A DNA stretch of 64,000 nucleotides, from contig JAATFL010000033.1 in NCBI GenBank assembly GCA_015655215.1, positions 1-64,000 of the forward strand. Direction: 5' to 3'. Below, one piece after another: positions 32,080-51,370 of the stretch (position 1 is its first letter; each line of letters begins with the position of its first letter). Below the pieces are notes generated by a model. It searched no databases. It saw only the letters and a program-made list of their open reading frames with translations, and was not told where the DNA came from. Origin of the DNA: Coriobacteriia bacterium. Its GTDB lineage: Bacteria > Actinomycetota > Coriobacteriia > Coriobacteriales > RUG033. Both the position numbers and the translations under genes were made by a program.

Positions 32080-32134
32080 CGGGGCGTCCGAACGTGTGCC
32101 GGTGGATGGTAGCTGCGACCGAGGGGGTGATGAC

Positions 32135-32878: not shown

Positions 32879-35058
32879 CCAGGCGAAGCTTCCTGGCTGG
32901 AAGCGCAGGGGTGGCAACCCTCGTCGCTGGCGGCTTCGTGGGCTTCGGTTCCTGGAAGCAAGCGAAGGCGGCGGAGAAGACGGAGCAACCCGTCCTCGCA
33001 ACGGCCCATTCGATGTGCAACGCCTGCTCTTCGAAGTGTGGGTTCACGGCATACACCATCGATGGCAAGCTGCGCAAGCTCATCGGCGATGCCGAGAACC
33101 CCATGTGCAAGGGCAAACTCTGCGCTCGCGGCTATGGGTACTCGCAGATAGCCTATTCGAAGGACCGTCTCACCGATCCCTTGAGGAAGAACGAGAGAGG
33201 CGAGTTCGAGGCCGTATCCTGGGATCAGGCTTACAGCGAGATCGCCGAGAAGGTCGCCTCCATCATCGGCTCAGACGGTCCGCAGGCCATCGCGGCCGTG
33301 CAGGACCCGCGGCCGTCGGGAAAGTATTACACCACCCGTTTCGTGAACGCGCTGGGTTCGGCGAACGTCTACACGCATGCAGCGGCTTGCGACCTTTCCC
33401 GTGCAAGCGGGTTTCTCCAGACGATCGGGGCGTCCACCTACTCTTCCGATATCGTCAACTCGAAGATGACGATGTTCATCGGGCGGAACTACGCCGATGC
33501 GATACGTCCCTCGTCGGTGGCGCAACTGCAGCAGGCCCATGAGAGTGGTGCGCGCATCGTCATAGTCGATCCTCGTTGCAACAACACGATCGCCTTTGCC
33601 GATGAGTGGGTGCCCATCAATCCCGGCACCGACCTCGCCCTCATCCTGTCGATGGCGCACGTGCTTGTCGCCAAGGGCCTCTACGACCAGGAGTACGTGA
33701 AGGCCAACGGCGTCGGATTCGACGACTGGGCTGCCAAGCTCGTATCGTACACGCCGACATGGGCCGAGAGGATAACCGGGATATCCGCTGGGATCATCGA
33801 GCGCCTCGCCCTCGAGTTCGCCGAGGCCGCACCCGCCGCATCGATCGAGCAGGGCTGGCGTGCGGCCATCGGCTCCGCCTATCGGAACTCCGGCGAGACC
33901 GCTCGCGCGGTGTGCCTCTTCAACACGCTCCTCGGGTGCTGGAACCAGAAGGGTGGCGCGCTCTTCACGTCAACCGTCAACTCGGGTGCCCTTGATGAGG
34001 GGAGGTTCCCAAAGGTTCCCAAACCCGCGGTCCCGCTTCTCGGACTCGATGACTACCCTCTTGCGAATCCGGCCACGGGATCGGTGCTTCAGGCCGCAAA
34101 GCTCGCCAAGGACGGTGCGATCAAGGGCATGTTCTTCTACCAATCCAACATGGCGGCTGGTTATGCGAATCCCGCGTATCTTGCCGAGGCTCTGGGTTCC
34201 CTCGACCTCATGGTCGTCATCGACGTGCAGATGAGCGAGACCGCGATGCTTGCCGATTACGTCCTACCCGACACGAGCTACCTCGAACGCACGGAGATAC
34301 CGGAGTTCATCGATGGCATGGTCCCAGCCGTCGCCCTACGTGACCAGGTCATAGACAAGGTGCTCCCCAACACCAGGCCCGTCGACCAGATCTACGGTGA
34401 GCTCGCCGAGGCATGCGGCGTGGGCGAGTACTTCCCGTTCACCGTCGAGGAGCTTGCGGATGCGCAGCTTCGAACCGTCGGGCTATCACTCGAATCGTTG
34501 AGGGAGGTGGGAACGTCCTTCTTCGCCGACAAGGCCTATGCCTATGGCGCGGTGCCCATCTGGAATACCCCGACGGGGAAGATCCAGTTCACGAGTGACG
34601 CTTGCGTGAAAGCCGGGCTCACGGCCACACCGGAATGGCTTGCGCCATCGGTCATGCCAGGAAGCGACGACTTCCGCCTGATAGGTGGCAAGCAGCCCAT
34701 CCACAGCCACACGCAGACGACCAACATCGAGGACCTGATGCAGATCACGAAGGATTACGACCTGACCCGCGTGTGGATGAACGCCGACAGAGCCGCGCAG
34801 ATGGGCATCTCCGATGGCGACACCGTCCAGATATCCTCGTCCGTGCATTCCGGGACGGTCCGGGTCAAGGTGACAGAACGTTTGAATCCGACGGCGCTGT
34901 GGATACCGAGCCATTACGGCTGCTCATCTCCCGAGCAGCACACCGCGTACGGTGTCGGTCTGCGCCAAATGGACTTCGTGCCGTTCCATATCGAACCGGC
35001 ATATGGTTCGGCCATGACGGAAGAGGTCATCGTGACGGTCAAGAAAGTGGGTGCGTGA
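32860..35058 (+). CDS. Exported molybdopterin oxidoreductase, Psr/Phs-type catalytic subunit
   Basis: The protein is 732 residues from the ATG at 32860 behind GAGAGGAAA. The twin-arginine signal is T-R-R-S-F at 7-11. A 4Fe-4S motif near residue 53 reads C-N-A-C-S-S-K-C, with a fourth Cys in G-K-L-C-A-R-G. The likely metal-ligand position reads A-A-A-C-D-L-S-R, a cysteine as in polysulfide and thiosulfate reductase A subunits, not the serine of DMSO reductase. The late segments H-S-H-T-Q-T and H-Y-G-C-S-S fit pterin-binding regions. It forms a translationally coupled trio with the ferredoxin at 35058 and the NrfD-like protein at 35603. The natural acceptor is probably a sulfur compound, by inference. 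Confidence 0.85.
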   Translation: MSEKAITRRSFLAGSAGVATLVAGGFVGFGSWKQAKAAEKTEQPVLATAHSMCNACSSKCGFTAYTIDGKLRKLIGDAENPMCKGKLCARGYGYSQIAYSKDRLTDPLRKNERGEFEAVSWDQAYSEIAEKVASIIGSDGPQAIAAVQDPRPSGKYYTTRFVNALGSANVYTHAAACDLSRASGFLQTIGASTYSSDIVNSKMTMFIGRNYADAIRPSSVAQLQQAHESGARIVIVDPRCNNTIAFADEWVPINPGTDLALILSMAHVLVAKGLYDQEYVKANGVGFDDWAAKLVSYTPTWAERITGISAGIIERLALEFAEAAPAASIEQGWRAAIGSAYRNSGETARAVCLFNTLLGCWNQKGGALFTSTVNSGALDEGRFPKVPKPAVPLLGLDDYPLANPATGSVLQAAKLAKDGAIKGMFFYQSNMAAGYANPAYLAEALGSLDLMVVIDVQMSETAMLADYVLPDTSYLERTEIPEFIDGMVPAVALRDQVIDKVLPNTRPVDQIYGELAEACGVGEYFPFTVEELADAQLRTVGLSLESLREVGTSFFADKAYAYGAVPIWNTPTGKIQFTSDACVKAGLTATPEWLAPSVMPGSDDFRLIGGKQPIHSHTQTTNIEDLMQITKDYDLTRVWMNADRAAQMGISDGDTVQISSSVHSGTVRVKVTERLNPTALWIPSHYGCSSPEQHTAYGVGLRQMDFVPFHIEPAYGSAMTEEVIVTVKKVGA

Positions 35059-35597
35059 TGGCGCGGTATGGAATGCTCATCAATACCAAGAAGTGCATCG
35101 GCTGCTACACGTGCCTGGTCGCCTGTCATCGCCAGAACAACCTGCTCCCCACGGAGAACTTCATCCGCTTCGAGGAGCGCGAGACGGGCACGTATCCCAA
35201 CGTGGGCGTCGAGAACATTCCCTTGCAGTGCATGCACTGCGAAGATGCTCCCTGTGCCGCCGTCTGCCCCACGGGCGCTACCTACATAGGTCCCGGCGGC
35301 GTCGTCGCGGTCGAGGAGGGGCGCTGCATCGGGTGCAAGTACTGTATGGCGGCGTGCCCGTACCAGGTCCGCGTCGTCAACGAGAGCACCGGCACCGTCG
35401 ACAAGTGTCGCTTCTGCACGGTCACGGCCACCGATGGCACGAAGACCTGCTCGTGCGTCGAGGCGTGCCTCACGGGCGCCCGCACGTTCGGCGATCTGGA
35501 TGACCCTGAAAGTGACGTATCCAAAGCCATCGTCGAGTTGAACGCGAAGCCCATCGCGGGAGACCTGACCAAGGCCAAGATCTTCTACGTGAGGTGA
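35058..35597 (+). CDS. Ferredoxin subunit of Psr-type molybdoenzyme
   Basis: This 179-residue protein has an ATG that overlaps the previous stop by one base (TGATG). Four 4Fe-4S motifs are visible: C-I-G-C-Y-T-C-L-V-A-C, C-M-H-C-E-D-A-P-C-A-A-V-C-P, C-I-G-C-K-Y-C-M-A-A-C-P, and the spaced C-R-F-C ... C-S-C-V-E-A-C. This is the DmsB/PsrB type that carries electrons between the membrane anchor and the catalytic subunit. Length and motif order are normal. It has no export signal, so it is expected to leave the cell as a complex with the twin-arginine partner at 32860. Confidence 0.92.
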   Translation: MARYGMLINTKKCIGCYTCLVACHRQNNLLPTENFIRFEERETGTYPNVGVENIPLQCMHCEDAPCAAVCPTGATYIGPGGVVAVEEGRCIGCKYCMAACPYQVRVVNESTGTVDKCRFCTVTATDGTKTCSCVEACLTGARTFGDLDDPESDVSKAIVELNAKPIAGDLTKAKIFYVR

Positions 35598-35602
35598 TCG
35601 AT

Positions 35603-36463
35603 ATGACATTCGTACCTGTCTGGGGCGGTATCATCGCCTGCTATCTGTTCCTTGCCGGACTGGGTGGTGGCGCGTTCATCACGGCGTCCCTGGTCAAGAG
35701 GATGCATCCCGAGGCGACCGGTGTGGTCAGGGTCGGGCGCGTCATCGCTCCGATCGTGGTCATCGTCGGTCTCTGCCTGCTCATGGTGGATGCCCGTGGT
35801 GGCCTGTACAACCCGCTCCGCTTCGTCTTCCTCCTCACGAACCCTGGATCCGTGATGACCTGGGGTGTCGTCATCCTCGCGGTGTTCGTGCTCGCCGCGC
35901 TCATCGTCCTGCTCATGGACCTCATCGGCAAGAATGAGGCGCCGGCGTGGCTCGTGTGGGTGGGCAACGTCTTCGGGATCCTCACCGCCGCCTACACGGG
36001 CGTGCTGCTGGGTGTGGTCAACACGTTCCCGCTGTGGAACAACGCGCTGCTCCCGGTCCTCTTCATCGTGTCGGCGCTCTCCACCGGCATGGCGGCCGTG
36101 ATGCTCGGTGGGCTCATCACGTGCCCTGAACAGGTCAAGGGCATGGTGGACCTGACGAAGGTGCACCTCGTGCTCCCGGCGATTGAGATCGTGCTCTTCT
36201 TCTTCCTGCTCTTCATCGTCGCCCACGTGTCCACCGCCGGTGCGGCCTCGGTGGCCGCCATGGTGAGCGGGGGTTACGCGCTGGCCTTCTGGGTCGGCAT
36301 CATGGCCGTGGGTCTCGTCATACCGCTCGTCATCGAGATCCGGGCGTTGCGCAGCGGCGATAATCGCGGGCTCGCCATCGCAGGCGACGTGGGCGTGCTG
36401 ATCGGTGGCTACCTGGTGCGCTACATCATCATCGTGGCGGCCCTCCCGGTGGTCCTCCTCTGA
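35603..36463 (+). CDS. NrfD/PsrC-like membrane anchor subunit
   Basis: The protein is 286 residues with eight or so hydrophobic helices, beginning W-G-G-I-I-A-C-Y-L-F-L-A-G-L-G-G-G. That is the family's typical opening. NrfD/PsrC subunits take electrons from the quinol pool and pass them to the ferredoxin subunit. The ATG at 35603 follows GAGGTGA at six bases; a GTG at 35594 that overlaps the previous stop is an alternative. It is the last gene of the trio beginning at 32860 and is followed by a 12-bp hairpin at 36528. Confidence 0.9.
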   Translation: MTFVPVWGGIIACYLFLAGLGGGAFITASLVKRMHPEATGVVRVGRVIAPIVVIVGLCLLMVDARGGLYNPLRFVFLLTNPGSVMTWGVVILAVFVLAALIVLLMDLIGKNEAPAWLVWVGNVFGILTAAYTGVLLGVVNTFPLWNNALLPVLFIVSALSTGMAAVMLGGLITCPEQVKGMVDLTKVHLVLPAIEIVLFFFLLFIVAHVSTAGAASVAAMVSGGYALAFWVGIMAVGLVIPLVIEIRALRSGDNRGLAIAGDVGVLIGGYLVRYIIIVAALPVVLL

Positions 36464-36527
36464 TCGAGGGTATCTCGACGGAGGTCCGTCGACAGGGAGT
36501 CGCACCGTGCTCTTGCGCGGTGGTCAG

Positions 36528-36559
36528 CCGGAGGGCGCCGTATCCATGGCGCCCTCCGG
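36528..36559 (+). terminator. Hairpin after the Psr-type operon
   Basis: A perfect 12-bp GC-rich stem (36528-36539 with 36548-36559) has an 8-base loop, 65 bases past the NrfD stop. No T-run follows. It probably ends or attenuates the operon before the DmsA-like gene. Confidence 0.65.
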
Positions 36560-36697
36560 TGCCGATGAGCCATGGAGCACCTCGGCAACTCGGCGCGGCA
36601 GTCCGTGGAGAAGTGCATGTCGTGCGGCACTCGCGCACGCGGTGGGCAGGGTAGACTTCCCCTGACGGGTCACTTCGACGATGGAGGCTGAACTGCG

Positions 36698-39001
36698 GTG
36701 TCCGATGACACACGAACCATCTGGAGTCACTGCACGGTGAACTGCGGTGCTCGGTGCCCGCTGCTCTTCCATGTGCGCGATGGTCGCATCATCTGGGTCG
36801 AGGGGGCGTCTGCGCACGACGGCGCCCTGCCTGACGGAGGTGCCAGCCCCGCCGCATCCGTCCCCCAACCTCGGCCGTGCCTGCGGGGCCGCACGGTTCG
36901 ACGCTGGATCGAGAGCCCCCATCGCCTACGGTATCCCCAAAGGCGCGTCGGCGCCCGTGGCGAGGGACGTTTCGAGCGTATCACCTGGGACGAGGCGCTC
37001 GATGACATCTCGACGCGTCTTCGCCATACCATCGACACCTACGGCAACGAAGCGGTCTACGTCGCCTATGGTACGGGTGTGCATGCGACGACGGGGCGCT
37101 GCTTCGAACGTCTCGTGAACCTGCTCGGTGGACACCTTGGTCGCTACAACGATTACTCGACGGCGCAGATAGCCGCGGCGATGCCCTACACCTATGGAGA
37201 GGCCGATGCGTTCACCGCCTCACCTCTCATCGAGGCGGCCAGCGCACGGCTCATCGTGAACTTTGGCAACAGTCCCGCCGAGACGAGCATGGGAGGGGCC
37301 GGGGGCTCACGTGATTTCAGCTGGGTGCGTGAGGTGTCGGGGGCGAGGATCTACCAGGTCGACTATCGCTTGACCGAAACCTGTACGGGACATCCAGATG
37401 AATGGCTGCCCATTCGTCCGGGCACCGATGCCGCGCTCGTGAGCGCCATCGCCCACGAGCTCGTCGTGAACGATTGGATCGACCAGGATTTCCTCGACGC
37501 CTATACCATCGGCTTCGACGACACGACGATGCCGATGCATCTGCGAGGGCAGAATCTCGGTTATCGTGACTACCTTCTCGGGACCGGATACGATGGGATG
37601 CCGAAGACCCCCGAGTGGGCCGCGCCGATCACCCAGATTCCCGCAGAGAGCATCCGCCGGCTCGCGCGTGACGTCGGCACCATCCGCCCGCTGTTCGTCA
37701 TGCAGGGCTGGGGGCCGCAACGTCATTCGAACGGCGAACTCACTGCACGCGCCATCGCCATGCTCCCCCTCCTCACCGGCCAGGTGGGTCTGCCGGGCAC
37801 GAGCACGGGGTCACATGAGGCGTCATCGGATCGACTCATCGCGGACCTTCCCTCTGGACCCAACCCGGTCAAGGCGCGGATATCCTGCTTCACCTGGACC
37901 GATGCCGTCTCTCGTGGGACCGAGATGACCGCCGAGTCCGACGGGGTCCGTGGTGTCGACAGGCTCTCCACCAACATCAAGTTCATCTGGAGCTACGCCG
38001 GCAACTGCCTCACCAACCAGCATGGTGGGATCAACATGGTGCACGACATCCTGGTCGACGAGTCCCTGTGCGAATCCATCATCGTCACCGACACGGTCAT
38101 GACGGATTCAGCGCGCTATGCCGATATCCTCTTGCCCGACGTCATGCGCATGGAACAGACCTCCATGGCCTGTCAGGGGGAGTCCGAGTGGTACCAGGGT
38201 GTGACGTTTGGTCAGAAGGTGGTCGACGCACCGGGTGAGTGCCGCACGTCCTATGACGTCTGTGCCGCTCTCGCGAGACGCTTCGGGTTGTGGCAGCGGT
38301 TCACCAGGGAACGCAGCCAGGAAGAGTGGATCGCCCACCTGTACGAGGAGGCCCGCGACCGCGATCACGGATTACCCTCCTACGAGGACGGTGTGGCGAT
38401 GGGGCACTACTCGCGTGCGCTTCCGACCACGGTCGCCCTCGCGGACTTCCGGCGAGACCCCGCCGCCCATCCGCTTTCGACACCATCGGGCAAAGCCGAG
38501 ATATTCTCGGAGTCCCTGGCGCGCAAAGCGACGGCCTGGAAGCTTCCGGAGGGTGAGGTGATGAGCCCGCTGCCCATCTACGACGCCGGCTTCGAGGGGT
38601 GGGATCGGGCGACCGACGAGTACCCGCTCATCTGTGCCGGCTATCACGACAAGGCCCGCGCGCACTCCTCCTTCGGATCCATCGAGTCCCTCAAGCAAGC
38701 CTGCCCGCATCGGCTGTGGATCAATCCGATCGATGCGCAGCCTCGCGGGATCGTCTCCGATGACCGGGTGCGCGTGAGCTCGCGGTACGGTACCGTCGAG
38801 GTGCTGGCGCGCGTCACCCGTCGCATCATCCCGGGAACGGTGGGACTGGCGCAGGGTGCCTGGCACGAGGCCGACATGGTGGGTGACCGGGTGGATGTGG
38901 GTGGCTGCATCAACACGCTCACCTCGCTCCACCCGTCACCGCTTGCCAAGGGAAACGGAGTCCACACGAATCTGGTACAGGTGCGCCTCTGCAAGCGATG
39001 A
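36698..39001 (+). CDS. DmsA-like molybdopterin oxidoreductase without export signal
   Basis: This 767-residue protein begins directly at the 4Fe-4S domain (C-T-V-N-C-G-A-R-C at about 12-20, fourth Cys in R-P-C-L-R-G-R). It has no twin-arginine leader. The segment R-Y-N-D-Y-S-T-A-Q-I matches the region that supplies the serine ligand to molybdenum in DMSO reductase DmsA. This places it closer to DmsA/BisC/TorA-type enzymes than to the Cys-ligand enzymes nearby. No ferredoxin or membrane subunit is adjacent. It may be a cytoplasmic enzyme or one borrowing partners from another operon. The ORF shows no frameshift. The substrate is not predictable. Confidence 0.82.
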   Translation: MSDDTRTIWSHCTVNCGARCPLLFHVRDGRIIWVEGASAHDGALPDGGASPAASVPQPRPCLRGRTVRRWIESPHRLRYPQRRVGARGEGRFERITWDEALDDISTRLRHTIDTYGNEAVYVAYGTGVHATTGRCFERLVNLLGGHLGRYNDYSTAQIAAAMPYTYGEADAFTASPLIEAASARLIVNFGNSPAETSMGGAGGSRDFSWVREVSGARIYQVDYRLTETCTGHPDEWLPIRPGTDAALVSAIAHELVVNDWIDQDFLDAYTIGFDDTTMPMHLRGQNLGYRDYLLGTGYDGMPKTPEWAAPITQIPAESIRRLARDVGTIRPLFVMQGWGPQRHSNGELTARAIAMLPLLTGQVGLPGTSTGSHEASSDRLIADLPSGPNPVKARISCFTWTDAVSRGTEMTAESDGVRGVDRLSTNIKFIWSYAGNCLTNQHGGINMVHDILVDESLCESIIVTDTVMTDSARYADILLPDVMRMEQTSMACQGESEWYQGVTFGQKVVDAPGECRTSYDVCAALARRFGLWQRFTRERSQEEWIAHLYEEARDRDHGLPSYEDGVAMGHYSRALPTTVALADFRRDPAAHPLSTPSGKAEIFSESLARKATAWKLPEGEVMSPLPIYDAGFEGWDRATDEYPLICAGYHDKARAHSSFGSIESLKQACPHRLWINPIDAQPRGIVSDDRVRVSSRYGTVEVLARVTRRIIPGTVGLAQGAWHEADMVGDRVDVGGCINTLTSLHPSPLAKGNGVHTNLVQVRLCKR

Positions 39002-40422: not shown

Positions 40423-43032
40423 ATGGCCTACTACGACAAGGATGTCGACATTCACGCCGATGGTGTGGAAGTGAAGAAGTCGTGCTGTTACTTCTGCCAT
40501 CAGAACTGCGGCGTGCTGGCGTACGTCAAGGATGGCAAGGTCCTCAAGATCGAGGGGGACCCCGACCACCCCACCAACTCGGGGGGTCTGTGCTGTCGGG
40601 GCAACATCGCCTTGCAGCATCTCGACCACCCGGCGCGCAACAACCACCCGCTCAAGCGCGCCGGCGAGAAGGGCGAGGGCAAGTGGGACCGCATCTCGTG
40701 GGACCAGGCGATCTCCGAGATAGCCGCCAAGCTCTGCCAGATCCGCGACGAGAGCGGAGCCGAGGCCGTGGCGACGGCCGGAGGCACGCTGCGCACCGAG
40801 GACTGGGCGCGTCGTCGCTTCATGAACATGTTCGGGAGCCCCAACAGCTTCCACAACGCCCTGCTGTGCTGGATACCCACGTTCATGGTGGAGACGGCGG
40901 TGTCCGGGTGGAGCCCGTTCGAGACCGACCTGGGCGACTCGCGCTGCATCATCCTGTGGGGGATGAACCCCGGCGCCTCATCGCTTCCGGGCATGCGCGG
41001 CTACACCGACCTCCAGATGGCCGGCCTCAAGATCGTCGTGGTCGACCCCCGTTACTCCGAGACCGCCTCGAAGGCCGACCTCTGGCTACCCCTCAAGCCG
41101 GGTAGCGACACCGAGCTGTCGCTCGCCATGCTCAACACGATCATCTACGAGGGTCTCTACAACGCCGAGTTCGTCCAGAACTGGTGCGAGGGCTTCGAGG
41201 AGCTCACGGCGCATATCGCCGAGTACACCCCCGAGTGGGCGGCACCGCGCACGTGGCTTGACGCCGAGCAGATCCGCACCGCCGCGCGCATGTACGCCAA
41301 GAACACCCCCAGCAACATCCAGTGGGGTTGCACGGCCGACCAGCTCGGGCCCAACTCCGGTGCCGGCATGCACGCGCGTGCGTGCATGCGCGCCATCTGC
41401 GGCAACCTCGACTGCCCTGGTGGCGACCTCATGCCGGGACCCTCGATGGGATATTACTGCGACGAGGAGATCGAGGCCAACGACTGGCTTGACGAGGGGC
41501 AGCGCGCCAAGCAGATCGGATCGGACCGCTACCGCCTCACCTCGTGGCCCGGCTACGGCATCATCGCCGGCATCGCCAAGGAGAAGTGGGGCAAGGCCCC
41601 CACGGCCGAGTGGATGTGCGAGGCCCATGGCCCGTCGGTCTTCAAGGCGATCCTCACCGGCGACCCCTACCAGGTCCGCGCCCTCATCGTGAACGCGACC
41701 AACCCGGTCAACTCCTACGGTGACTCCAAGATGACGCTCGCCGCCCTCAGGCAGGTGGAGTTCCTCGTCACCTGCGACTACTGGATGACCCCGGCGGCGC
41801 TCTACTCCGACTACGTGATGCCCATCGCCGGCGCCCTCGAGCGCCCGACGATCCACACCAACTACGGCGTCACCGACTCCATCCTGTGCTCGCAGCGCGC
41901 CATCCAGCCCATGTACGAGCGCCATACCGACTACTCGTTCTGGCACGACCTCGCCCTCGCCACCGGCCAGGACGCCGACCAGTGGCCCTGGGATGACGAG
42001 GAGGAGGCGTTCTTCTACATCCTCTCGCCGCTCGGATACCCGGTGCAGACCTACGACGAGTTCGTCGAGAACTACCGCTTCTACTACCCGCCGCTGCACT
42101 ACTACAAGTACGGCGACAAGGGGTTCTGCACCCGCTCCGGCAAGGTCGAGCTCAAGAGCTCGGTCATGGAGGAGATCGGCCTGCCGTCGCTGCCCACCTT
42201 CACCCCCAACGCCGAGAACGAGATCGACAATCCCGAGGTCGCCGAGGAGTACCCGCTCGTCCTCACGACCGGTGGCGGGTACATGCCCTTCCACCACTCC
42301 GAGGAGTTCCAGATCGAATCCGTGCGCTATCTCTATCCCGAACCCCGCTTCAAGATGAACGCGGCGACGGCCGAGGCGTACGGTATCGGGGAAGGCGACT
42401 GGTGCTGGATCGAGACCCGGCGCGGTCGCATCAAGCAGCGAGCCGAGATCGACCAGAGCCTGCACGTGGATACCGTGTGGTGCGGGCGCGGCTGGTGGTA
42501 TCCCGAGCTGGGCATCAACGACAGGGACGACCCCTTCGGCTGCCTCGACTCCAACGTGAACGTCCTCACCTCGGTCGATGCCGAGCACTGCGATCCCATC
42601 GGTGGCAGCTGGGCCAACCGAGGGCTCCTGTGCAAGGTCTATCGGTGCCGTCCCACGGAGGCCGGCATCAACATGGGCAGGGTGGACACGGCCTTCTCGA
42701 TCCCCGGGTCGGCGCCCACGCCCGGCATCCACGTGACGCCCTCCGAGGAGCCTCGCGCCTACGACCTCATCGCCTACGATCCCAAGCCCACCTTCGACGT
42801 GCCCGAGGGCCTCGTCTGGGACAAGGGCCGCAAGGTGGCGTGGGACCCCGCCTCGAACCTCGTCTACGACCCCGAGTCCGGCTGGCTCTACGATCCTGCG
42901 ACGTACGTCTACTACGACGTGCTCACGCGGTACGCCTACGACCCCGAGGCGCAGAACCTCGTGGACATGGGCACGGGCAAACGATACGACATGGAGACCC
43001 GCGCGGAGATCGTCGGGGGAGGAGATCGGTGA
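40423..43032 (+). CDS. Molybdopterin oxidoreductase with OCRE-like octad-repeat tail
   Basis: This 869-residue protein starts behind GGAGAGAGGGGAGAG. The 4Fe-4S site is C-Y-F-C-H-Q-N-C near residue 23, with a fourth Cys in G-L-C-C-R-G. The likely metal-ligand region reads F-H-N-A-L-L-C-W-I-P, a cysteine in the position and sequence context of acetylene hydratase-like and catechol dehydroxylase-like enzymes. It has no twin-arginine signal. Residues 797-860 are eight consecutive octads of the type x-V-Y-D-P-x-x-G (for example LVYDPESG and WLYDPATY), with Asp at position 4 of each and aromatic residues before it. This resembles the OCRE octamer-repeat domain. It is translationally coupled to a ferredoxin (43032) and an NrfD-like protein (43604). 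The substrate is unknown. Confidence 0.85.
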   Translation: MAYYDKDVDIHADGVEVKKSCCYFCHQNCGVLAYVKDGKVLKIEGDPDHPTNSGGLCCRGNIALQHLDHPARNNHPLKRAGEKGEGKWDRISWDQAISEIAAKLCQIRDESGAEAVATAGGTLRTEDWARRRFMNMFGSPNSFHNALLCWIPTFMVETAVSGWSPFETDLGDSRCIILWGMNPGASSLPGMRGYTDLQMAGLKIVVVDPRYSETASKADLWLPLKPGSDTELSLAMLNTIIYEGLYNAEFVQNWCEGFEELTAHIAEYTPEWAAPRTWLDAEQIRTAARMYAKNTPSNIQWGCTADQLGPNSGAGMHARACMRAICGNLDCPGGDLMPGPSMGYYCDEEIEANDWLDEGQRAKQIGSDRYRLTSWPGYGIIAGIAKEKWGKAPTAEWMCEAHGPSVFKAILTGDPYQVRALIVNATNPVNSYGDSKMTLAALRQVEFLVTCDYWMTPAALYSDYVMPIAGALERPTIHTNYGVTDSILCSQRAIQPMYERHTDYSFWHDLALATGQDADQWPWDDEEEAFFYILSPLGYPVQTYDEFVENYRFYYPPLHYYKYGDKGFCTRSGKVELKSSVMEEIGLPSLPTFTPNAENEIDNPEVAEEYPLVLTTGGGYMPFHHSEEFQIESVRYLYPEPRFKMNAATAEAYGIGEGDWCWIETRRGRIKQRAEIDQSLHVDTVWCGRGWWYPELGINDRDDPFGCLDSNVNVLTSVDAEHCDPIGGSWANRGLLCKVYRCRPTEAGINMGRVDTAFSIPGSAPTPGIHVTPSEEPRAYDLIAYDPKPTFDVPEGLVWDKGRKVAWDPASNLVYDPESGWLYDPATYVYYDVLTRYAYDPEAQNLVDMGTGKRYDMETRAEIVGGGDR
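42811..43002 (+). repeat. Eight tandem octapeptide repeats encoded at a molybdoenzyme C-terminus
   Basis: These 64 codons make eight back-to-back 8-residue units with a strictly kept Asp at position 4 and Trp or Tyr in position 3 of seven of eight units. Codons vary between units, so the pattern is kept at protein level and is not a young DNA microsatellite. Nine residues follow before the stop. Confidence 0.85.
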
Positions 43033-43607
43033 TGGCACATTACGGAATGGTCATGGACCAGCGTAGATGCATCGGCTGCCAATCCTGCACGGTCGCCTGC
43101 CGTGCCTGGAACGACCTGCCGCTGGACATCATCTACAACCCGGTGGTGACCGAGGGCGTGCAGGGCGCGTACCCCAACGTGCACGAGACCTGGACCCCGC
43201 TCATCTGCATGCACTGCGTGAATGCACCCTGCGTGGCATGCTGTCCCACCGGTGCGAGCCAGAAGGATCCCGACACGGGCATCGTCTTCGTGGACAGCGC
43301 CAAGTGCATGGGCTGCAAGGTGTGCGTCAACGCCTGCCCCTATGGCGCTCGCGACACCTCCGGGATGGTGAGCCACCTCGAGGGGTACGTGCGCAAGTGC
43401 AACTTCTGCAGGGACCGCGTGGCGCGAGGCGAGCAGCCCTACTGCGTGGCCACCTGTCACCAGAGGGCCCGCATCTTCGGCGACCTCGACGACCCTGGGT
43501 CCGACATCTCCAAGCTCGTCGGTTCCGTGGGGACGTACCGCCTGCTCGAGGAGTACGGCACCGAGCCCTCCGTCTACTACATCCCGGACCTTGGAGGCAA
43601 GAGATGA
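43032..43607 (+). CDS. Ferredoxin subunit of the octad-tailed molybdoenzyme
   Basis: This 191-residue protein has an ATG that overlaps the previous stop (GTGATGG). Four 4Fe-4S motifs are visible: C-I-G-C-Q-S-C-T-V-A-C, C-M-H-C-V-N-A-P-C-V-A-C-C-P, C-M-G-C-K-V-C-V-N-A-C-P and C-N-F-C ... C-V-A-T-C. It belongs to the same DmsB/PsrB group as the protein at 35058 and likely arose by duplication of the trio. It should link the NrfD-like subunit to the catalytic subunit at 40423. Confidence 0.92.
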   Translation: MAHYGMVMDQRRCIGCQSCTVACRAWNDLPLDIIYNPVVTEGVQGAYPNVHETWTPLICMHCVNAPCVACCPTGASQKDPDTGIVFVDSAKCMGCKVCVNACPYGARDTSGMVSHLEGYVRKCNFCRDRVARGEQPYCVATCHQRARIFGDLDDPGSDISKLVGSVGTYRLLEEYGTEPSVYYIPDLGGKR

Positions 43608-44602
43608 GAAAGCACTACTGGTCCTGGCCCATCGCGGCCTACCTCTTCCTCGGGGGCCTCGGCGGCGGCATCTTCACCATCATCATGGTCTGCGAGAACT
43701 TCCTCGAGGGCGGCGGCTTCGGCGTCTACTGCCTGGGCTCGGCGCTCGTCGGGCTTGTCTGCCTCGCTTTCGGCACCTTCCTCCTCGTCTTCGAGCTGGG
43801 GCAGCCCCAGGTGTTCCTGCGCGTGTTCACGACCAAGACGGCCATCATCAAGTGGGGTGCCGTGCTGCTCTCCGTCTGCATCTTCGCGGGGCTGTTCTAC
43901 ATCCTGTCCTACCTCTCCGAGATATGGAGCTGGCTCGCCTGGTGCTCGTTCCTCATCCCGGTGCGCGGCTTGAGCCTCTCCGTCGCGGGCGTCACGGGGA
44001 TCTGCATCATGATCTACACCGGGGTGCTGCTCTCGAGTCTCAAGGCCCATTCGTTCTGGGCGACTCCTGCGCTGCCGGTGCTCTTCACCGTCTCCGCCCT
44101 CTCCACGGGGTGCGCCGCCGTGGCGCTCTCGCTGGGCGTGTGGCCCTACAGCGCACTTCCCGAGTTCAAGCTGCACGTGACCGACTCCCTCGCGGCCATC
44201 GCCACGGTGCGCGAGTTCATCCACTCGCTCGACATCGTCCTCATCATCGTGGAGCTCATCGTGCTCTTCATCTACCTGCTGTTGCTGCGCGGTGCGGGCA
44301 ACGTCGTGGCCCAGAAGGTCGCGGCACGCTGGCTCACCGGAAGTTTCGCCGGCTGGTTCTGGGGTGGCATGGTGGTGTGCGGGCTCGGTCTCCCCCTGCT
44401 GTGCTACACGGTCCTGGGCGGTGTCGCGGGGGCGTACATCGCTCCCATCTTCGCCCTGGCCGGTGGCCTGCTCCTCCGTTTCCTGGTCATCAACTCCGAC
44501 GACCGTCGCACCATTCCCGGAGAGGACCTCTTCTACAGCCGCCTGCCCAAGGGCGACGAGAGGTTCCTCACCGCCTGGGGCGCCGTGCCGGGGAGGAAGT
44601 AG
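43604..44602 (+). CDS. NrfD/DmsC-like membrane anchor subunit
   Basis: The protein is 332 residues, starting with a 4-base overlap (ATGA) with the ferredoxin gene. It has about eight to nine hydrophobic helices, opening W-P-I-A-A-Y-L-F-L-G-G-L-G-G-G, the family signature. It is longer than the NrfD-like protein at 35603. A polar C-terminal tail of about 30 residues ends G-R-K. It should deliver quinol electrons to the trio. A 30-bp hairpin follows at 44681. Confidence 0.9.
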   Translation: MRKHYWSWPIAAYLFLGGLGGGIFTIIMVCENFLEGGGFGVYCLGSALVGLVCLAFGTFLLVFELGQPQVFLRVFTTKTAIIKWGAVLLSVCIFAGLFYILSYLSEIWSWLAWCSFLIPVRGLSLSVAGVTGICIMIYTGVLLSSLKAHSFWATPALPVLFTVSALSTGCAAVALSLGVWPYSALPEFKLHVTDSLAAIATVREFIHSLDIVLIIVELIVLFIYLLLLRGAGNVVAQKVAARWLTGSFAGWFWGGMVVCGLGLPLLCYTVLGGVAGAYIAPIFALAGGLLLRFLVINSDDRRTIPGEDLFYSRLPKGDERFLTAWGAVPGRK

Positions 44603-44746: not shown

Positions 44747-44860
44747 ATCGTGCCCGTGTGGGGGAGTCGTGCGCATGCACGTGCGGTTTGCTCGACGGTA
44801 TGGCCTACCGACCGGTCCTGTGAGATAATAGACTACGTCTTATACAGGAGGTGTGCACAT

Positions 44861-45736
44861 ATGGGTACGAGGTCCTTCCTCGATGCGTTGCAGCGTGAGA
44901 CCATCACCGTGGACGAGGAGACGCTGGCGTATCGTCTCGACTCGCTGCCCGATGACCTTGTGGCGGGGACCATCGCACCCTGCGAGAGGCTCTTCGTTCC
45001 CGGGTGCTCCTTCCTCAACTACTCGCCCCGCTTGATGCAGCGGACCTACGACGTGGCGCGTTCGGAGGGGCTTGCGGATGGGATATCCTTGCAGTGCTGT
45101 GGCAAGATCCTCGACTATGACGTAGACGGCCGCGCGATGAAGCCCGCATACCAGGAGCTTCTCGTGCGCTCCCTCATCGCATCGGGCGTGCGGCAGATCC
45201 TCGTCGCCTGCCCCAACTGCCATGCGGAGTTCCTCAAGCTCATCGCGCGCGACGAGCGACTCTCGGGCATACGGGTGACGGTGCTACCGGAGGAGCTCGC
45301 CGCGCGCGGGTACCGCATCGACGATGAGACCATCCGCCGCGTGGGTCCCGTCTCCATCCAGGACCCGTGCCCCGACCGGACGATGCAGGTCTTCGCCGAC
45401 GGCGTGCGCGCCATCGTGGGCGAGGAGCACGTCGTCGAGATGAGGTGCAACCGTCGTCACTCGGTGTGCTGTGGGGCCCGCGTCCGGGCGGCCGGGTGCG
45501 AGGTGGCGGCGGACCTGATGGCATGGGATCGGGTTGACGAGGCGCGTGAGGCGGGTGGCCGGATGGTGGTGACCGCCTGCATGAGCTGCAGCTATCTGCT
45601 GGACGCCGCGCAACGCGACGTCGCAGGGCCCGCGCCTCTGCCGGTGTGCCACTATCTCGAACTCCTGTTCGACCAACGGGTCGAGTGGGCTGGCAAGCCG
45701 GGGCACCTGTCCGTGAGGTTCCTTCTGGGGATGTGA
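44861..45736 (+). CDS. CCG-domain cysteine-rich protein (HdrB/GlpC-like), cluster gene 1
   Basis: The protein is 291 residues from the ATG at 44861 behind a near-perfect AGGAGGTG. It has two cysteine-rich half-sites: L-F-V-P-G-C ... L-Q-C-C-G-K in the first half and D-P-C ... S-V-C-C-G-A with C-M-S-C-S-Y in the second. This is the CCG domain of heterodisulfide reductase B, GlpC and lactate utilisation proteins, which holds an unusual iron-sulfur cluster. It has no separate ferredoxin domain, unlike its partner at 51846. It is the first gene of a tight cluster running to 53111. Confidence 0.82.
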   Translation: MGTRSFLDALQRETITVDEETLAYRLDSLPDDLVAGTIAPCERLFVPGCSFLNYSPRLMQRTYDVARSEGLADGISLQCCGKILDYDVDGRAMKPAYQELLVRSLIASGVRQILVACPNCHAEFLKLIARDERLSGIRVTVLPEELAARGYRIDDETIRRVGPVSIQDPCPDRTMQVFADGVRAIVGEEHVVEMRCNRRHSVCCGARVRAAGCEVAADLMAWDRVDEAREAGGRMVVTACMSCSYLLDAAQRDVAGPAPLPVCHYLELLFDQRVEWAGKPGHLSVRFLLGM

Positions 45737-45782
45737 GGGTCGCGCGTCGACCATGGGATCGAGGCGGGGGAGGGAGCGCACG

Positions 45783-48011
45783 GTGAGCGAGACACGCAAG
45801 ACCAACTGCCATTTCTGCGGATACCTCTGCGCCTTCCTCGCCACCGTGGAGGATGGTCGCGTGACCGACCTGGCCCCCGACCCCACGCGCTATCCCTACG
45901 ATCCCGCCATCCTCAGGGGATGCCGTCGCTGGCGCACCAACCTCTCCTTCCTCGACGACCCCGACCGGGTGAACCATCCGCTGCATCGTGTGGGCGAGCG
46001 GGGTAGCGGTCGATGGGAGCAGGTGAGCTGGGACGAGGCGCTCGATGACATCGCCACCCGCCTCGAAGGGCTCGTCGGCCAGTACGGGCCACAGGTGCTC
46101 GCGAGCATGATCGGGGGCCCGCACGCGACCTTCTGGCCCCTGCATCGATTCATGAACCTCCTCGGCAGTCCCAACAACATGGGCATCGGGCAGATCTGCT
46201 GGAACCCGCGCATCTGGATGGACACGCTCGCATTCGGCTGGCCCATCGAGGCCGATATCTCCGCGAAGACCGGTTGCGTGTTCATCTGGGGCACCAATCC
46301 GGCTCAATCCGACAACTCGGCGTTCTGGCACGCACTTCTCGACATCTCCAAAGGACCCGTCCCCCTCGTGGTGGTCGATCCTCGTCGCACCCAGACGGCC
46401 GCCGCCGCCGATCTGTGGATCTCGCCTCGACCGGGCACGGACGGCACCCTCGCCCTCTCGATGGTCGACGTGATCATCGAGAACGACTGGTACGACCACG
46501 GGTTCGTCGAGCGGTGGTGCCTGGGCTTCGAGGGTTTGCGCGAGCACGTCTCGGCGTATGCGCCCTCGTGCGCCGCCGCGGTGTGCGAGGTGCCCGAGGA
46601 GCGGATCGTCGAGGCGGCCCGGCTCTTCTCCCGTTCGGGCCCCACGGTGCTCATCAGCGGCCGCGGCATCGACCAGGTGGGGCGCAACGTGGTTCCCACG
46701 CACCGGGCCTTCACCATCTTGCGCGCCATCACGGGAAACGTCGACCGCACGGGGTCGTGCATCATCGGGTCCGCCTCCGACTTCATCCCCGAGGTGGACC
46801 TCGAGATGTCTGATCGCTTCCCGTCCGCGCAGAGGCGTGCGCAACTGCAACGGGGCATCACACCGCTGCAGTCATACGAGGGGGTGGAGGGCGCCGATGC
46901 GCTTACCGGCCGCTTCGGTCGTCACCTTCCCAAACGCTACCTCGATTCGGCGCATCCCGACCTCGTCCTCAAGGCGATGCTGACCGGCGAGCCATACCCG
47001 GTGCGCGCCCTGATCGTCGAGGCCACCAACCCGCTCCTCACCTACGCCGACACGCACCGGGTGTTCGAGGCGCTCTCGTCGCTCGACGTGCTCGTGGTGC
47101 TGGAGTATCGCATCACACCCACTGCCATGCTGGCCGACTACGTGCTGCCCGCAGCCGGGGCCATCGAGCGGCCGGTCTTCCAGGCGCATGGCGGTGTGGC
47201 CAACCTGGGTTACGGAGGCCCGGCGGCGGTTAGGCCCTACTACGAGCGCAAGACCGATTACGAGATCCTGCGCGGGTTGGCGCTTCGCATGGGCCAGGGC
47301 GAACAGTGGCCGGACGAGACGCTCGAGGATGCGTTCGACCGCATGCTCGAGCCGGTGGGTCTCACCTGGGAGACGTTCTGCGAGACGGGCATCTACGCGG
47401 GATGCGAGTCGTCTCGAAAGCAGGACCAGATCGACCCTCGCACGGGAAAGCCCGTCGGGTTCGCCACCACGACGGGCAAGATCGAGCTTGCGAACGAATA
47501 CCTGCAGACGCTGGGCGGGGAGGCGTATCCAACCCCCAAGCCCTTGCGCGACGATCTTTCCCCACGCCTCGTCGAGGCGGCCCGAAAACGCGGTGGTGGA
47601 CGGTTCGACCTCATCACCGGCGCGCGTCGTCAGCCGTACAACGCGAGCATGTTCCTCGACAACCCCCAGTACAGGAAGGGCTACCCTCGTGCGCAAGCGT
47701 CGATGAACGAGGCGACGGCCACTCGTCTCGGCGTCGTGGCTGGCGACGACGTCGTGCTCGCCACGAACCGGGGGGAGGCTCGCTTCGAGGTGCGCATCGA
47801 GCGGATGCACGACAACCTCATCAGCGCTGACTACGGCTGGTGGTACCCGGAGAGGCCGCCAGGTGCACCGGACTTCTCGGGAATGTGGGAGTCGAACGTC
47901 AACGTCCTCACCGACTGCAGCCTTGCGAACGGCGAGGAGCTCATCGGAACGTGGAGCTACAACGCACTGCCCTGCGTGGCATGGAAACCGACCGAAGGAG
48001 AAGATCGATGA
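45783..48011 (+). CDS. Molybdopterin oxidoreductase, acetylene hydratase-like branch, cluster gene 2
   Basis: The protein is 742 residues from the GTG at 45783, with GGAGGGAG eight bases upstream; an ATG at 45753 is less likely. The 4Fe-4S site is C-H-F-C-G-Y-L-C near residue 9, with a fourth Cys in L-R-G-C-R-R. The likely metal-ligand region is G-I-G-Q-I-C-W-N-P, a Cys-Trp pair as in the enzyme at 40423. No export signal is present, so it is cytoplasmic. C-terminal pterin segments include A-D-Y-G-W-W-Y-P and S-N-V-N-V-L-T. No ferredoxin or membrane partner follows. Instead a DUF2064 gene overlaps its stop, which is unusual. Confidence 0.82.
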   Translation: MSETRKTNCHFCGYLCAFLATVEDGRVTDLAPDPTRYPYDPAILRGCRRWRTNLSFLDDPDRVNHPLHRVGERGSGRWEQVSWDEALDDIATRLEGLVGQYGPQVLASMIGGPHATFWPLHRFMNLLGSPNNMGIGQICWNPRIWMDTLAFGWPIEADISAKTGCVFIWGTNPAQSDNSAFWHALLDISKGPVPLVVVDPRRTQTAAAADLWISPRPGTDGTLALSMVDVIIENDWYDHGFVERWCLGFEGLREHVSAYAPSCAAAVCEVPEERIVEAARLFSRSGPTVLISGRGIDQVGRNVVPTHRAFTILRAITGNVDRTGSCIIGSASDFIPEVDLEMSDRFPSAQRRAQLQRGITPLQSYEGVEGADALTGRFGRHLPKRYLDSAHPDLVLKAMLTGEPYPVRALIVEATNPLLTYADTHRVFEALSSLDVLVVLEYRITPTAMLADYVLPAAGAIERPVFQAHGGVANLGYGGPAAVRPYYERKTDYEILRGLALRMGQGEQWPDETLEDAFDRMLEPVGLTWETFCETGIYAGCESSRKQDQIDPRTGKPVGFATTTGKIELANEYLQTLGGEAYPTPKPLRDDLSPRLVEAARKRGGGRFDLITGARRQPYNASMFLDNPQYRKGYPRAQASMNEATATRLGVVAGDDVVLATNRGEARFEVRIERMHDNLISADYGWWYPERPPGAPDFSGMWESNVNVLTDCSLANGEELIGTWSYNALPCVAWKPTEGEDR

Positions 48012-48865
48012 AGAGGGAAGCACTGCTCATCTTCAGCAAGCCGCCAATCCCCGGCTTGGTCAAGACACGCCTCACCACTGCGAACGGCGGATTCCTCTCG
48101 GAGGAACAGGCTGCCGAGTTCTTCAGGCGCTCGCTCTTCGACGTGTCGGAGATGTGTCAGCTCGAACTGCTCGACATGCAGGCCGGAAACGACGCTGCCG
48201 TGGCCGCTGACGCCGAGGTGGAGCCGATACGGTACGATTTCTTCGTCTCCACGACGCCGGCCGACAACGTCGAGGTGATGCGCAGGACGTTTGAGGACCT
48301 GGGGCAGTGGCCGATGGAGATCCATTACCTCCATGACAGCGGCAAGACGTTCGACGACCACTTCGACGACTCGTTCAAGCAGATCTTCGACCTGGGCTAC
48401 GACTGCGTCGTCTCCGTGGGAGGGGACCTGCCCACCATGCCCAAGTCGCACATCTCCCAGGCCTTCGCCTGGCTCGAGTACTTCGACCGCCTGGGCACGC
48501 CCGGCTTCGTGCAGGCCCCCTGCCAGGAGTGCGGCACCTCCCTGGTGGGGTTCTCGCGCGACACCCCCATCGATCATCAGGACATCTACTACAACCGCGA
48601 CGGCGTACCCGCCCTCGACGGGTACGTGAGGAAGCTCGAGGCGGCGAACATCCCCAGCGCGTATCTTTCGCCCGTCTCGGACGTGGACATCCGCGAGGAC
48701 CTGGCGCACATGATCTCCTGCCTGCGTGCCATCAAGGCGGCCGCACCCTATCAACCCGACCTCTACGTCGCCCAGCGTGTGCTCGACTGGGTGGATTGGA
48801 CGGGCATCCGCGTGGGCACGCCTCCGAACGAGAACCACGACCCGCGTCAGTACATCGACGAATAG
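48008..48865 (+). CDS. DUF2064/TIGR04282-like nucleotidyl- or glycosyltransferase-fold protein, cluster gene 3
   Basis: The protein is 285 residues with an ATGA overlap with the molybdoenzyme gene. The opening L-L-I-F-S-K-P-P-I-P-G-L-V-K-T-R-L matches the DUF2064/CofC-like GT-A fold. V-S-V-G-G-D-L-P-T-M-P marks the nucleotide- and metal-binding part. Some relatives are annotated in arsenosugar or cofactor pathways. A nucleotidyltransferase fold beside a molybdoenzyme recalls MobA-type cofactor nucleotidylation, but that is only inference. It is longer than typical DUF2064 proteins of about 200 residues. Confidence 0.72.
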   Translation: MKREALLIFSKPPIPGLVKTRLTTANGGFLSEEQAAEFFRRSLFDVSEMCQLELLDMQAGNDAAVAADAEVEPIRYDFFVSTTPADNVEVMRRTFEDLGQWPMEIHYLHDSGKTFDDHFDDSFKQIFDLGYDCVVSVGGDLPTMPKSHISQAFAWLEYFDRLGTPGFVQAPCQECGTSLVGFSRDTPIDHQDIYYNRDGVPALDGYVRKLEAANIPSAYLSPVSDVDIREDLAHMISCLRAIKAAAPYQPDLYVAQRVLDWVDWTGIRVGTPPNENHDPRQYIDE

Positions 48866-48926
48866 GGTCCGCACCGGCACGTCTCGCGTGTGGAACCGAT
48901 GAGCGTGATGTTGGAAAGGTGGTCCG

Positions 48927-50255
48927 ATGAGTCCTGAAGATACGGTCCTGCGCACCACGCACGCCCTGTGCCCGGTATGCCTCAAGGAGCTTCTGGCGAC
49001 GGTCTTCTCCGATGCGGGCGGGGTCGTGTGGATGGAGCGCATCTGTCCCGAGCACGGCGAGACGGTCTCGCGCGTGTGGCCCGACGTCGACCACTATCGC
49101 TGGATGACGTCGCTCGATTTTCCCCGGAACCCGCCGCATGCGACGTGCGGCGGAGCGACGGCGACCAGGCCGTGCCCCTTCGGGTGCGGCGTGTGCGAGC
49201 GTCACGCCCGCAAGGGCACGCTGCAGGAGGTCGAGGTGACGCAGGCGTGCAACCTGCACTGCCCCGTATGCTTCATGTCGGCACAGAGCGATCGGCACGA
49301 CCCGGACATGGAAGGGCTTTCGGCCATGTTCGACGCCATCGTGCGCACGGGGGGCGTCGATACCGGTGTCCAGATAACGGGCGGCGAGCCCACGGTGCGG
49401 GAGGACCTGCCCGATATCATCCGCATGGCACGGGGCAAGGGCTTCTGGGGTGTGGAGGTCAACACGAACGGCCTGGTCATCGCCTCGCGCGACGGGTATC
49501 TCGAGACGCTCGTCGAGGCGGGGCTCACGGGTGTCTACCTCTCGTTCGACTCGCTCGTCGCGGACGTGTACCGGCAGATGAAGGGTGCCGACCTGCTTGC
49601 GGTGAAGCTCGAGGCCGTCGAGCGATGTCGGGTCGCGGGTATCCAGGTGGTGCTTGCGATGACGATCGTCGCGGGCACCAACGAGCACGAGGTGTACGAC
49701 ATCATCCGCTTCGCCCTTGACAACCCCGACGTCGTGGTGGGCGTCGCCCTGCAACCGGCGTTCACCTCGGGTCGCTTCGAGACGGGCCGGACCATCACCT
49801 ACACGATGGGCGACGTGATCGCCCAGTTGGCCGAGCAGCATCCCGACATGTTCGATTCCCATGACTTCCTGCCGCTCTCCACATCCAACCCACTGTGCGA
49901 CGCGGGCACGTATCTGCTGCCCGACCCCGACGCCCCCGCCGGCTGGACGCCTGCCACGCGCGGGCTCACGCGCGAGGGGTATCTGGCGGCCTACAACCCG
50001 GATTCCCCACAGGGGTCCGTCTTCCTCGACATCCTCTCGGGCGAAGGGCGCGACCTCTCGCACGGCCTTTCGATTGTCATCATGGACTACATGGACGCCT
50101 ACACGATGGACACCGACCGTCTGCGCGACTGCTCGATGATGGTGGCGATCCCCGACGGGCGCACCATCCCGTTCTGCTCGTACCACCTCACCGACGCCTC
50201 GGGTCGCAGGGTCTACGCGCCATGGGGCAAAGAGGGATTGCGGGGTTCGCTATGA
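48927..50255 (+). CDS. Radical SAM protein of the Tes/MJ0619-like class, cluster gene 4
   Basis: The protein is 442 residues from the ATG at 48927. The N-terminal zinc ribbon-like part has C-P-V-C-L-K-E-L and I-C-P-E-H-G-E. Another Cys group (C-P-F-G-C-G-V-C) precedes the radical SAM motif C-N-L-H-C-P-V-C (CX3CX2C) near residue 110. The SAM-binding segment Q-I-T-G-G-E-P-T-V follows. This order (ribbon, extra cysteines, radical SAM barrel) is seen in tetraether lipid synthase and in MJ0619-like pterin methylases, whose members make C-C bonds or methyl additions. Its substrate here is unknown. The stop overlaps the start of the next gene. Confidence 0.75.
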   Translation: MSPEDTVLRTTHALCPVCLKELLATVFSDAGGVVWMERICPEHGETVSRVWPDVDHYRWMTSLDFPRNPPHATCGGATATRPCPFGCGVCERHARKGTLQEVEVTQACNLHCPVCFMSAQSDRHDPDMEGLSAMFDAIVRTGGVDTGVQITGGEPTVREDLPDIIRMARGKGFWGVEVNTNGLVIASRDGYLETLVEAGLTGVYLSFDSLVADVYRQMKGADLLAVKLEAVERCRVAGIQVVLAMTIVAGTNEHEVYDIIRFALDNPDVVVGVALQPAFTSGRFETGRTITYTMGDVIAQLAEQHPDMFDSHDFLPLSTSNPLCDAGTYLLPDPDAPAGWTPATRGLTREGYLAAYNPDSPQGSVFLDILSGEGRDLSHGLSIVIMDYMDAYTMDTDRLRDCSMMVAIPDGRTIPFCSYHLTDASGRRVYAPWGKEGLRGSL

Positions 50256-51370
50256 TGGGTGCAGGGAAAGGCGGGACTTCCGGAGCGACCTCGGATGCGA
50301 CTCGCCCGGACATCTCGACCACCATGCCGAGTGCCGAGCAGATCCGCACCTCCCATGGTGCGGTGGCCGACTTCGACGTGACCAACGCCTACGGCGGTGA
50401 GCCGGACTACGCGGTTCACCTCGACGGCGCAACATGCACCGGGTGCGGCCTGTGCGCGGCGTTCTGTCCCCTCGAGATCTACACGATGGTGGATGGTCGC
50501 CCGGTGGTGGGGGACGAGTCCGCATGCTGGGGGTGCGAGACCTGCGCGGGCCAGTGCCCCGCCCACGCCATCCGCATCGAGGCGCTCCCCGCCGCGCTCG
50601 CCAAGCGCTTTGCCACCGAGGTGGCCCCGCCGATGGACGCCCAACTCGCAGGAGAGTACCGCGCGTGGGCGACCACGCTCGGGGAGGTGCTCGACCTGCG
50701 ATGGCATCCGGTGGCCGTGAGCCTCATCCCCGCCGGCGCGCCGCTACCCGACGTGCCCCAGCCCACAGAGCGCTTGCGCTACTGCCAGTCGCTCATGGCG
50801 GCGCGGCGTGGTCGCAAGCTCCTGATGCCGGCCTGCAAGCACGCCTGTCCCGACGGTACCTCGATCCTGGGTCTCACCGGAATCCCGGCCAAGCTCGCCA
50901 CGGGTGAGATATACGTGCTCTTCCACAAGATGAACGACCTCGCCGCAGCGCAGCGCATGGTGAACGAGCGCCCCATGCTGCCCCCTCGCTCCATCGCCGC
51001 CACCTGCGTGGCCCCGCTCGACGATCCGGTCGCCCCCGCGGATGTGGTCGTGGTCGTGTGCAAACCGGAGCAGGTGATGTGGATATGCATGTCGGCCTCC
51101 TACTACACCGGGCACCGCCATGACTTCCATGCGTCCGGATTCAACGCGCAGTGCGTGGAGGCGACGCTGCTCCCTTTCACCACGAAGGAGCTCAACGTCT
51201 CGTTTGGCTGCTACGGCTGTCGTGGAAGCTCGGACGTCGAGGACGAGAACATGATGATCGGCATTCCCATCGAGCTCATGCCCACCATCGTCAGAGGCCT
51301 TACCGAACTTTCGCGCACGGCGATTCCCCAGGCTCGCAGCAAGATCTACCTCGGCCCTTTCGGCGAGTGA
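50252..51370 (+). CDS. Ferredoxin-DUF169 fusion protein, cluster gene 5
   Basis: The protein is about 372 residues from an ATG (50252 or the adjacent 50255) overlapping the previous stop. After a polar start it has a two-cluster ferredoxin domain at about 68-110 (C-T-G-C-G-L-C-A-A-F-C-P and C-W-G-C-E-T-C-A-G-Q-C-P). A DUF169 domain at about 130-360 follows, with V-A-V-S-L-I-P, P-A-C-K-H-A-C and F-G-C-Y-G-C-R-G. DUF169 proteins are found in anaerobes and methanogens and have no proven function. The fusion suggests a one-electron redox role within this cluster. Confidence 0.78.
   Translation: MMGAGKGGTSGATSDATRPDISTTMPSAEQIRTSHGAVADFDVTNAYGGEPDYAVHLDGATCTGCGLCAAFCPLEIYTMVDGRPVVGDESACWGCETCAGQCPAHAIRIEALPAALAKRFATEVAPPMDAQLAGEYRAWATTLGEVLDLRWHPVAVSLIPAGAPLPDVPQPTERLRYCQSLMAARRGRKLLMPACKHACPDGTSILGLTGIPAKLATGEIYVLFHKMNDLAAAQRMVNERPMLPPRSIAATCVAPLDDPVAPADVVVVVCKPEQVMWICMSASYYTGHRHDFHASGFNAQCVEATLLPFTTKELNVSFGCYGCRGSSDVEDENMMIGIPIELMPTIVRGLTELSRTAIPQARSKIYLGPFGE

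Follow-up and report, generated by a model that had tools for sequence, protein, structure and literature searches.

An OCRE-like domain at the C-terminus of a conserved molybdoenzyme of Coriobacteriia

The window, a stretch of 64,000 nucleotides of a Coriobacteriia contig, contains a gene for a molybdopterin oxidoreductase that ends in eight back-to-back octapeptides. This raises the question of what such a tail is, whether it belongs to the enzyme at all and what it could do there. The preliminary description had compared the octads with the OCRE domain of eukaryotic splicing factors, knew of no other molybdoenzyme with such a tail and suggested a docking module.

The repeat tail of the molybdoenzyme

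The molybdoenzyme consists of a catalytic core (residues 1-745) and a tail (residues 746-869), in which the octads occupy residues 797-860 (Table 1). Asp was found at position 4 of all eight octads, preceded by Trp or Tyr in seven and by Val in the seventh. Self-identity of the tail was 17 at lag 8 and 16 at lag 16 vs. 0-4 at the other lags up to 15, and none of 100,000 residue shuffles reached either the lag-8 value or the octad count of Asp preceded by Trp or Tyr, so that the pattern described from the letters alone was borne out. The reading frame is unbroken from the catalytic core through the tail, and the ferredoxin gene starts (ATG at 43032) within the TGA stop codon (43030-43032). Homologous tails occur at the same place in about 60 other genomes, and a shifted frame or an assembly artefact was therefore ruled out, the former as had been concluded earlier from the continuous frame; genomes with the tail include large single contigs and one isolate, Slackia sp. 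ZJ119.

Table 1. Features of the molybdoenzyme gene and its downstream neighbours in the window
Feature	Position	Strand	Basis or remark
Molybdopterin oxidoreductase catalytic subunit (MopA), 869 aa	40423..43032	+	Pfam Molybdop_Fe4S4, Molybdopterin, Molydop_binding
Pro-rich linker joining core and tail domain (SIPGSAPTPGIHVTPSEEPRAYDLIAYDPKPTF)	42658..42798	+	Mean pLDDT 49-61 (residues 751-770), about 82 (771-790)
OCRE-like domain, one unit, about 67-69 aa (VPEG...YDMETRA), predicted beta-strands with 8-residue spacing	42799..43005	+	Pfam OCRE, own unit HMM, AlphaFold
Eight octads LVWDKGRK/VAWDPASN/LVYDPESG/WLYDPATY/VYYDVLTR/YAYDPEAQ/NLVDMGTG/KRYDMETR	42811..43002	+	Periodicity
Ferredoxin-type subunit, 4Fe-4S clusters	43032..43607	+	Pfam Fer4_11; start overlaps catalytic-gene stop
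NrfD-type membrane subunit	43591..44602 (start approximate)	+	Pfam NrfD
CCG (cysteine-rich, HdrB-type) protein	44750..45736	+	Conserved neighbour
Second molybdoenzyme, tailless	45753..48011	+	Conserved neighbour
DUF2064 protein, radical SAM protein with HMPTM zinc ribbon	48011..50255	+	Conserved neighbours

The unit that folds extends beyond the eight octads: it begins at VPEG (residue 793) and takes in the ordered residues 786-792. When an 84-aa tail fragment was modelled with AlphaFold using 78 sequences, a confident all-beta fold with a short strand every eight residues was obtained (pLDDT 92.6, pTM 0.79) instead of a coil. In the model of the full-length enzyme (pTM 0.87) the tail had a pLDDT of about 90, and the value dropped to 49-61 in linker residues 751-770. 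The tail forms a separate module of about 67 residues, predicted as a sheet with one strand per octad, and the enzyme cores of relatives do without it. Residue numbers such as W36 and Y54 refer below to the modelled fragment.

Relation to the OCRE domains of RBM5 and RBM10

Pfam OCRE (PF17780) scored 29.8 bits on the full protein and 38.4-38.7 bits on the tail by itself, in both cases above the curated gathering cut-off of 24.7 bits. Nine composition shuffles of the tail gave no match to this profile, ruling out compositional bias as the source. Among the 78 distinct bacterial units collected, 76 were matched by Pfam OCRE at E<=0.1 (best E 3.3e-16), and our own unit HMM scored 118.5 bits for the window's tail. 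A PDB sequence search with the tail placed the OCRE domains of RBM5 and RBM10 on top (E 0.004-0.012), and the profile of the 78 units found RBM5 among the PDB sequences at E 8e-4.

The six strands beta1-beta6 of the RBM5 OCRE domain (462-465, 470-473, 478-481, 486-489, 494-498 and 504-506; PMC5127646) coincided with strands 28-31, 36-38, 45-46, 53-55, 60-62 and 69-70 of the fragment when Trp36 was set to Tyr470, the register taken from the HMMER alignments. As the repeat is periodic, a shift of this register by one octad is in principle conceivable; at the sequence level, the match of SGW to SGY argues for the register used. Two additional N-terminal strands precede the six RBM5-like ones, and the predicted tail shows an ordered N-terminal extension followed by six strands with 8-residue spacing, as in OCRE. 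Together with the profile and PDB matches, these strand positions uphold the designation of the octads as OCRE-like. A Foldseek search of 350,542 PDB chains returned the OCRE domains of RBM10 and RBM5 first and second, with E 0.19 and 0.89 and TM 0.30-0.37. The superposition is poor, and the similarity of the predicted model to OCRE is a local one, short of a demonstrable global match.

Across the 78 units Trp36 and Leu61 were invariant, and Pro9, Trp14, Asp31, Ser34, Gly35, Tyr54, Asp55, Asp63, Gly67 and Tyr70 were conserved in at least 90%. RBM5 OCRE is a peptide-binding sheet in which Y470, Y472, Y479, Y486, Y488 and Y495 are reported to contact the SmN polyproline peptide and Asp481 an Arg of that peptide (PMC5127646). 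The equivalents of residues 470, 479, 486 and 488 were aromatic in 100%, 97%, 97% and 100% of the bacterial units, those of 472 and 495 in 18% and 0%, respectively; the Tyr472 equivalent was mostly Ile or Val and the Tyr495 equivalent Leu in 78/78. The aromatic face is therefore mostly kept, but its beta5 part is not. The Asp481 equivalent was Asp or Glu in 75 units. Further likenesses to the OCRE domains of RBM5, RBM6 and RBM10 are octads with YDPxTG-type turns and an excess of acidic residues. In contrast to these domains, the bacterial tail has eight octads and strands instead of six strands, invariant Trp36 and Leu61 where RBM5 has Tyr470 and Tyr495, and it stands, as one to seven tandem copies, at the C-terminus of a redox enzyme.

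The domain type is a known one, which automatic Pfam annotation would flag. Our literature search found no paper joining OCRE and molybdopterin and none describing OCRE on a molybdoenzyme; judged by title and abstract, the OCRE papers retrieved were eukaryotic, with the exception of one reporting a weak OCRE domain match in a Salmonella Rhs protein (PMC7400221). Like the octads, Rhs/YD proteins contain Tyr-Asp repeats, and some Rhs-like proteins match OCRE weakly. Their repeat units are longer than 8 residues, unlike the OCRE-like octads, and RHS_repeat matched only one of the 78 units (E 0.04), so that membership of the Rhs/YD family was ruled out. Three Rhs-like proteins of other Coriobacteriia (L106, L107, L108) contain stretches of the type YYLDAETGLYYMPARYYDPxT with weak sub-threshold OCRE matches, and such proteins explain the other weak OCRE matches in the class. 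A search for a phage, plasmid or viral origin of the tail domain gave no match. BFVD does give the name OCRE to at least one phage protein, but its match is weak.

Distribution and evolution of the tail

A scan of 84,980 species genomes yielded 50 loci with relatives of the molybdoenzyme, among which most Coriobacteriia orthologs were tailed. Orthologs from Bacillota, about 65% identical and encoded in the same operon type, end at about residue 745 without a tail. In a sample of 400 Coriobacteriia genomes (core counted at E<=1e-200) the core was found in 65, the unit in 61 and both in 60. Four of the five genomes with the core only had fragmentary or contig-cut matches, and the fifth (G023, outside the order) encodes the only full-length tailless ortholog of this sample. 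Close homologues therefore do carry the repeats, and it is the more distant ones that lack them. Fusion of the repeats to a molybdoenzyme had been read correctly, but the tail is not the singular case that it had seemed: it is the normal state of the enzyme in one bacterial order. In the 400 genomes the unit was not found in any protein lacking a molybdoenzyme core, save for ORFs cut by contig ends or stops, and a sample of 297 Actinomycetota gave no other OCRE match above the cut-off. Three of 250 genomes from the phylum of a Bacillota record (G670, locus L023) contained OCRE above the cut-off, in the form of a short OCRE-like stretch (YTYDEQTGRYVHEITGIWYVV) in putative lipoproteins or related ORFs (L127-L130).

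The number of units per enzyme ranged from 1 to 7 in the 60 genomes with core and unit. One copy was present in the window and in termite-gut-type lineages, two in most of the sampled family f3, three in one supported clade and four to seven in a few. In one genome (G312) seven unit matches were split over two contig ends (L123 on C8 and L124 on C21), which probably represent one protein with at least seven units. Tailless second paralogs stood beside tailed enzymes in the same genome in three cases (G329, G384, G273). The ortholog at G363:C12:17555-20060 has two in-frame TAA codons in its core and is either a broken gene or the result of a sequencing error.

In a tree of 59 cores the tailless Bacillota enzymes clustered, and two tailless enzymes (L020 and L034) fell inside the tailed Coriobacteriia; with midpoint rooting and moderate deep support, this tree fits one gain of the tail and one later loss in L020/L034. 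One further genome (G223) encodes a paralogous molybdoenzyme with one tail unit (L102:8179-10872, minus strand), beside which no FeS or NrfD genes were recognised. Its unit was closest (62%) to unit 2 of the main enzyme of the same genome, while its core shared 77% identity with a paralog in L020 that has no tail. The domain therefore moves as a module and has passed once onto a paralogous molybdoenzyme. At L020:2761-8280 this tailless paralog adjoins the tailless enzyme of that lineage, in which the tail was apparently lost. Pairwise dN/dS of the tails was 0.03-0.33, above that of the cores in most pairs but clearly purifying, and the tail is thus under selection at the protein level. Its retention by dozens of related bacteria, in one to seven copies, likewise marks it as genuine and under selection. 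The domain may descend from OCRE or may have converged on it.

Operon context and possible role of the tail

The operon order MopA, FeS, NrfD, CCG, second molybdoenzyme, DUF2064, radical SAM (HMPTM) and DUF169 is conserved in the tailed genomes; of these genes the Bacillota share those for the enzyme, FeS, NrfD, radical SAM and the second molybdoenzyme, with no tail. With its molybdopterin catalytic domains and the adjacent FeS and NrfD genes the enzyme belongs to the complex iron-sulfur molybdoenzymes, and, as in the PsrABC/PhsABC type, a single operon encodes the catalytic, ferredoxin and NrfD subunits. It differs from this type in having no Tat-type leader and a core nearer to acetylene hydratase, and we know of no described PsrABC/PhsABC-type member with an OCRE-like tail. 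Because no Tat leader is present, the complex would face the cytoplasm.

The closest solved structure to the core, both by sequence (E 2e-110) and by fold (TM 0.90 on target), is acetylene hydratase (2e7z). Cys149, at the metal-ligand position, is invariant. The catalytic Asp of acetylene hydratase, Asp13 next to the 4Fe-4S cysteines, aligns with His26, invariant in 59 orthologs, and the same chemistry is therefore unlikely; acetylene hydratase activity is accordingly unsupported. Arg59 in place of Lys, the FeS/NrfD partner genes and the OCRE-like tail are further differences from that enzyme. Acetylene hydratase is likewise the closest match of the catechol dehydroxylases from this group of bacteria, and molybdoenzymes of gut Coriobacteriia act on host- and diet-derived catechols (PMC7028382).

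We favour, at a probability of roughly 0.55, the reading that the tail is a portable, folded OCRE-like beta-sheet domain serving as a cytoplasmic protein-docking module. The sheet would display an aromatic face (W36, Y45, Y52, Y54), which would hold an extended, probably proline-containing partner peptide, and the domain would link the catalytic subunit with a partner from outside its FeS/NrfD complex; a polyproline ligand and a gain in avidity from extra copies are speculative. The docking role already suggested from the octads agrees with the 1-7 copies and with the passage of a unit onto a paralogous enzyme. A partner for it was not found: between tailed and tailless loci no residue, segment, extension or motif of the FeS and NrfD proteins tracked the tail, and the FeS, NrfD and CCG proteins of the operon contained no conserved proline-rich motif.

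The domain could instead be a structural cap that packs on the molybdoenzyme or on ferredoxin/NrfD, making the complex more stable or influencing electron transfer, and recruits nothing else. Its almost exclusive occurrence on one enzyme, always C-terminal and beside conserved FeS and NrfD genes, would suit such a role, as would the confident full-length model, but the orthologs from Bacillota, which have these subunits too, manage without it, as do L020/L034, its copies vary in number, one of them sits on the paralog lacking a recognised FeS/NrfD gene alongside, and residues 751-770 are predicted with low confidence, as expected of a flexible linker. We regard a cap as possible, though rather doubtful. 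Improbable, in our judgement, is a variant of the proposed mechanism in which the aromatic face grips the Pro-rich linker of the enzyme itself, or the linker of a neighbouring unit or subunit, the tail acting as an intramolecular clasp in autoregulation, self-association or gating. The linker before each unit is Pro-rich, the VPEG proline is conserved in 73/78 units, fragment residues 1-12 are confidently placed (pLDDT 90-95) in a segment without regular structure, and the N-terminal extension of RBM5 OCRE packs on one face of the sheet (PMC5127646). This is, however, the face opposite the ligand face, so that the extension alone would leave the latter free.

Two other explanations appear very improbable. 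Neutral or selfish expansion of functionless repeats would account for tandem octads and units, typical products of slippage and recombination, and for the varying copy number, but is already largely refuted by the dN/dS values, the invariant residues and the persistence in 60 genomes of the sampled class. A module for metal or substrate, with a cation held by the conserved Asp/Ser/Gly turns or an aromatic substrate taken up by the aromatic face and passed to the active site, draws on the Asp in every octad and on the catechol substrates of relatives in the enzyme clade (PMC7028382); against it, RBM5 OCRE is described as a peptide-binding sheet (PMC5127646), and the low-confidence linker separates the domain from the core.

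The domain suggests that a conserved molybdoenzyme operon of gut Coriobacteriia involves an assembly step so far unrecognised. The bacterial domain, in single copy about 70 aa long and available in 78 natural variants and tandem forms, offers a simple system for asking what the OCRE fold recognises, and also a way to ask whether this fold predates the spliceosome or evolved twice. A bolder proposal, put forward tentatively and rather unlikely as a whole, is that one bacterial order uses single or tandem OCRE domains as peptide readers recruiting two molybdoenzymes to a common cytoplasmic partner; OCRE would then not be a eukaryotic invention confined to splicing, and redox assembly would proceed via polyproline-type recognition.

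The conserved set downstream in the window (45753-51370), with the second molybdoenzyme, DUF2064, the radical SAM protein with HMPTM zinc ribbon and a ferredoxin-DUF169 protein, looks more like an undescribed pathway than a plain respiratory operon. A PP.P/P.PP match is present in 26 of 35 DUF2064 proteins. Upstream (32096-39001) lies a second molybdoenzyme cluster with a delta-type chaperone, a molybdoenzyme, a ferredoxin, NrfD and a further molybdoenzyme.
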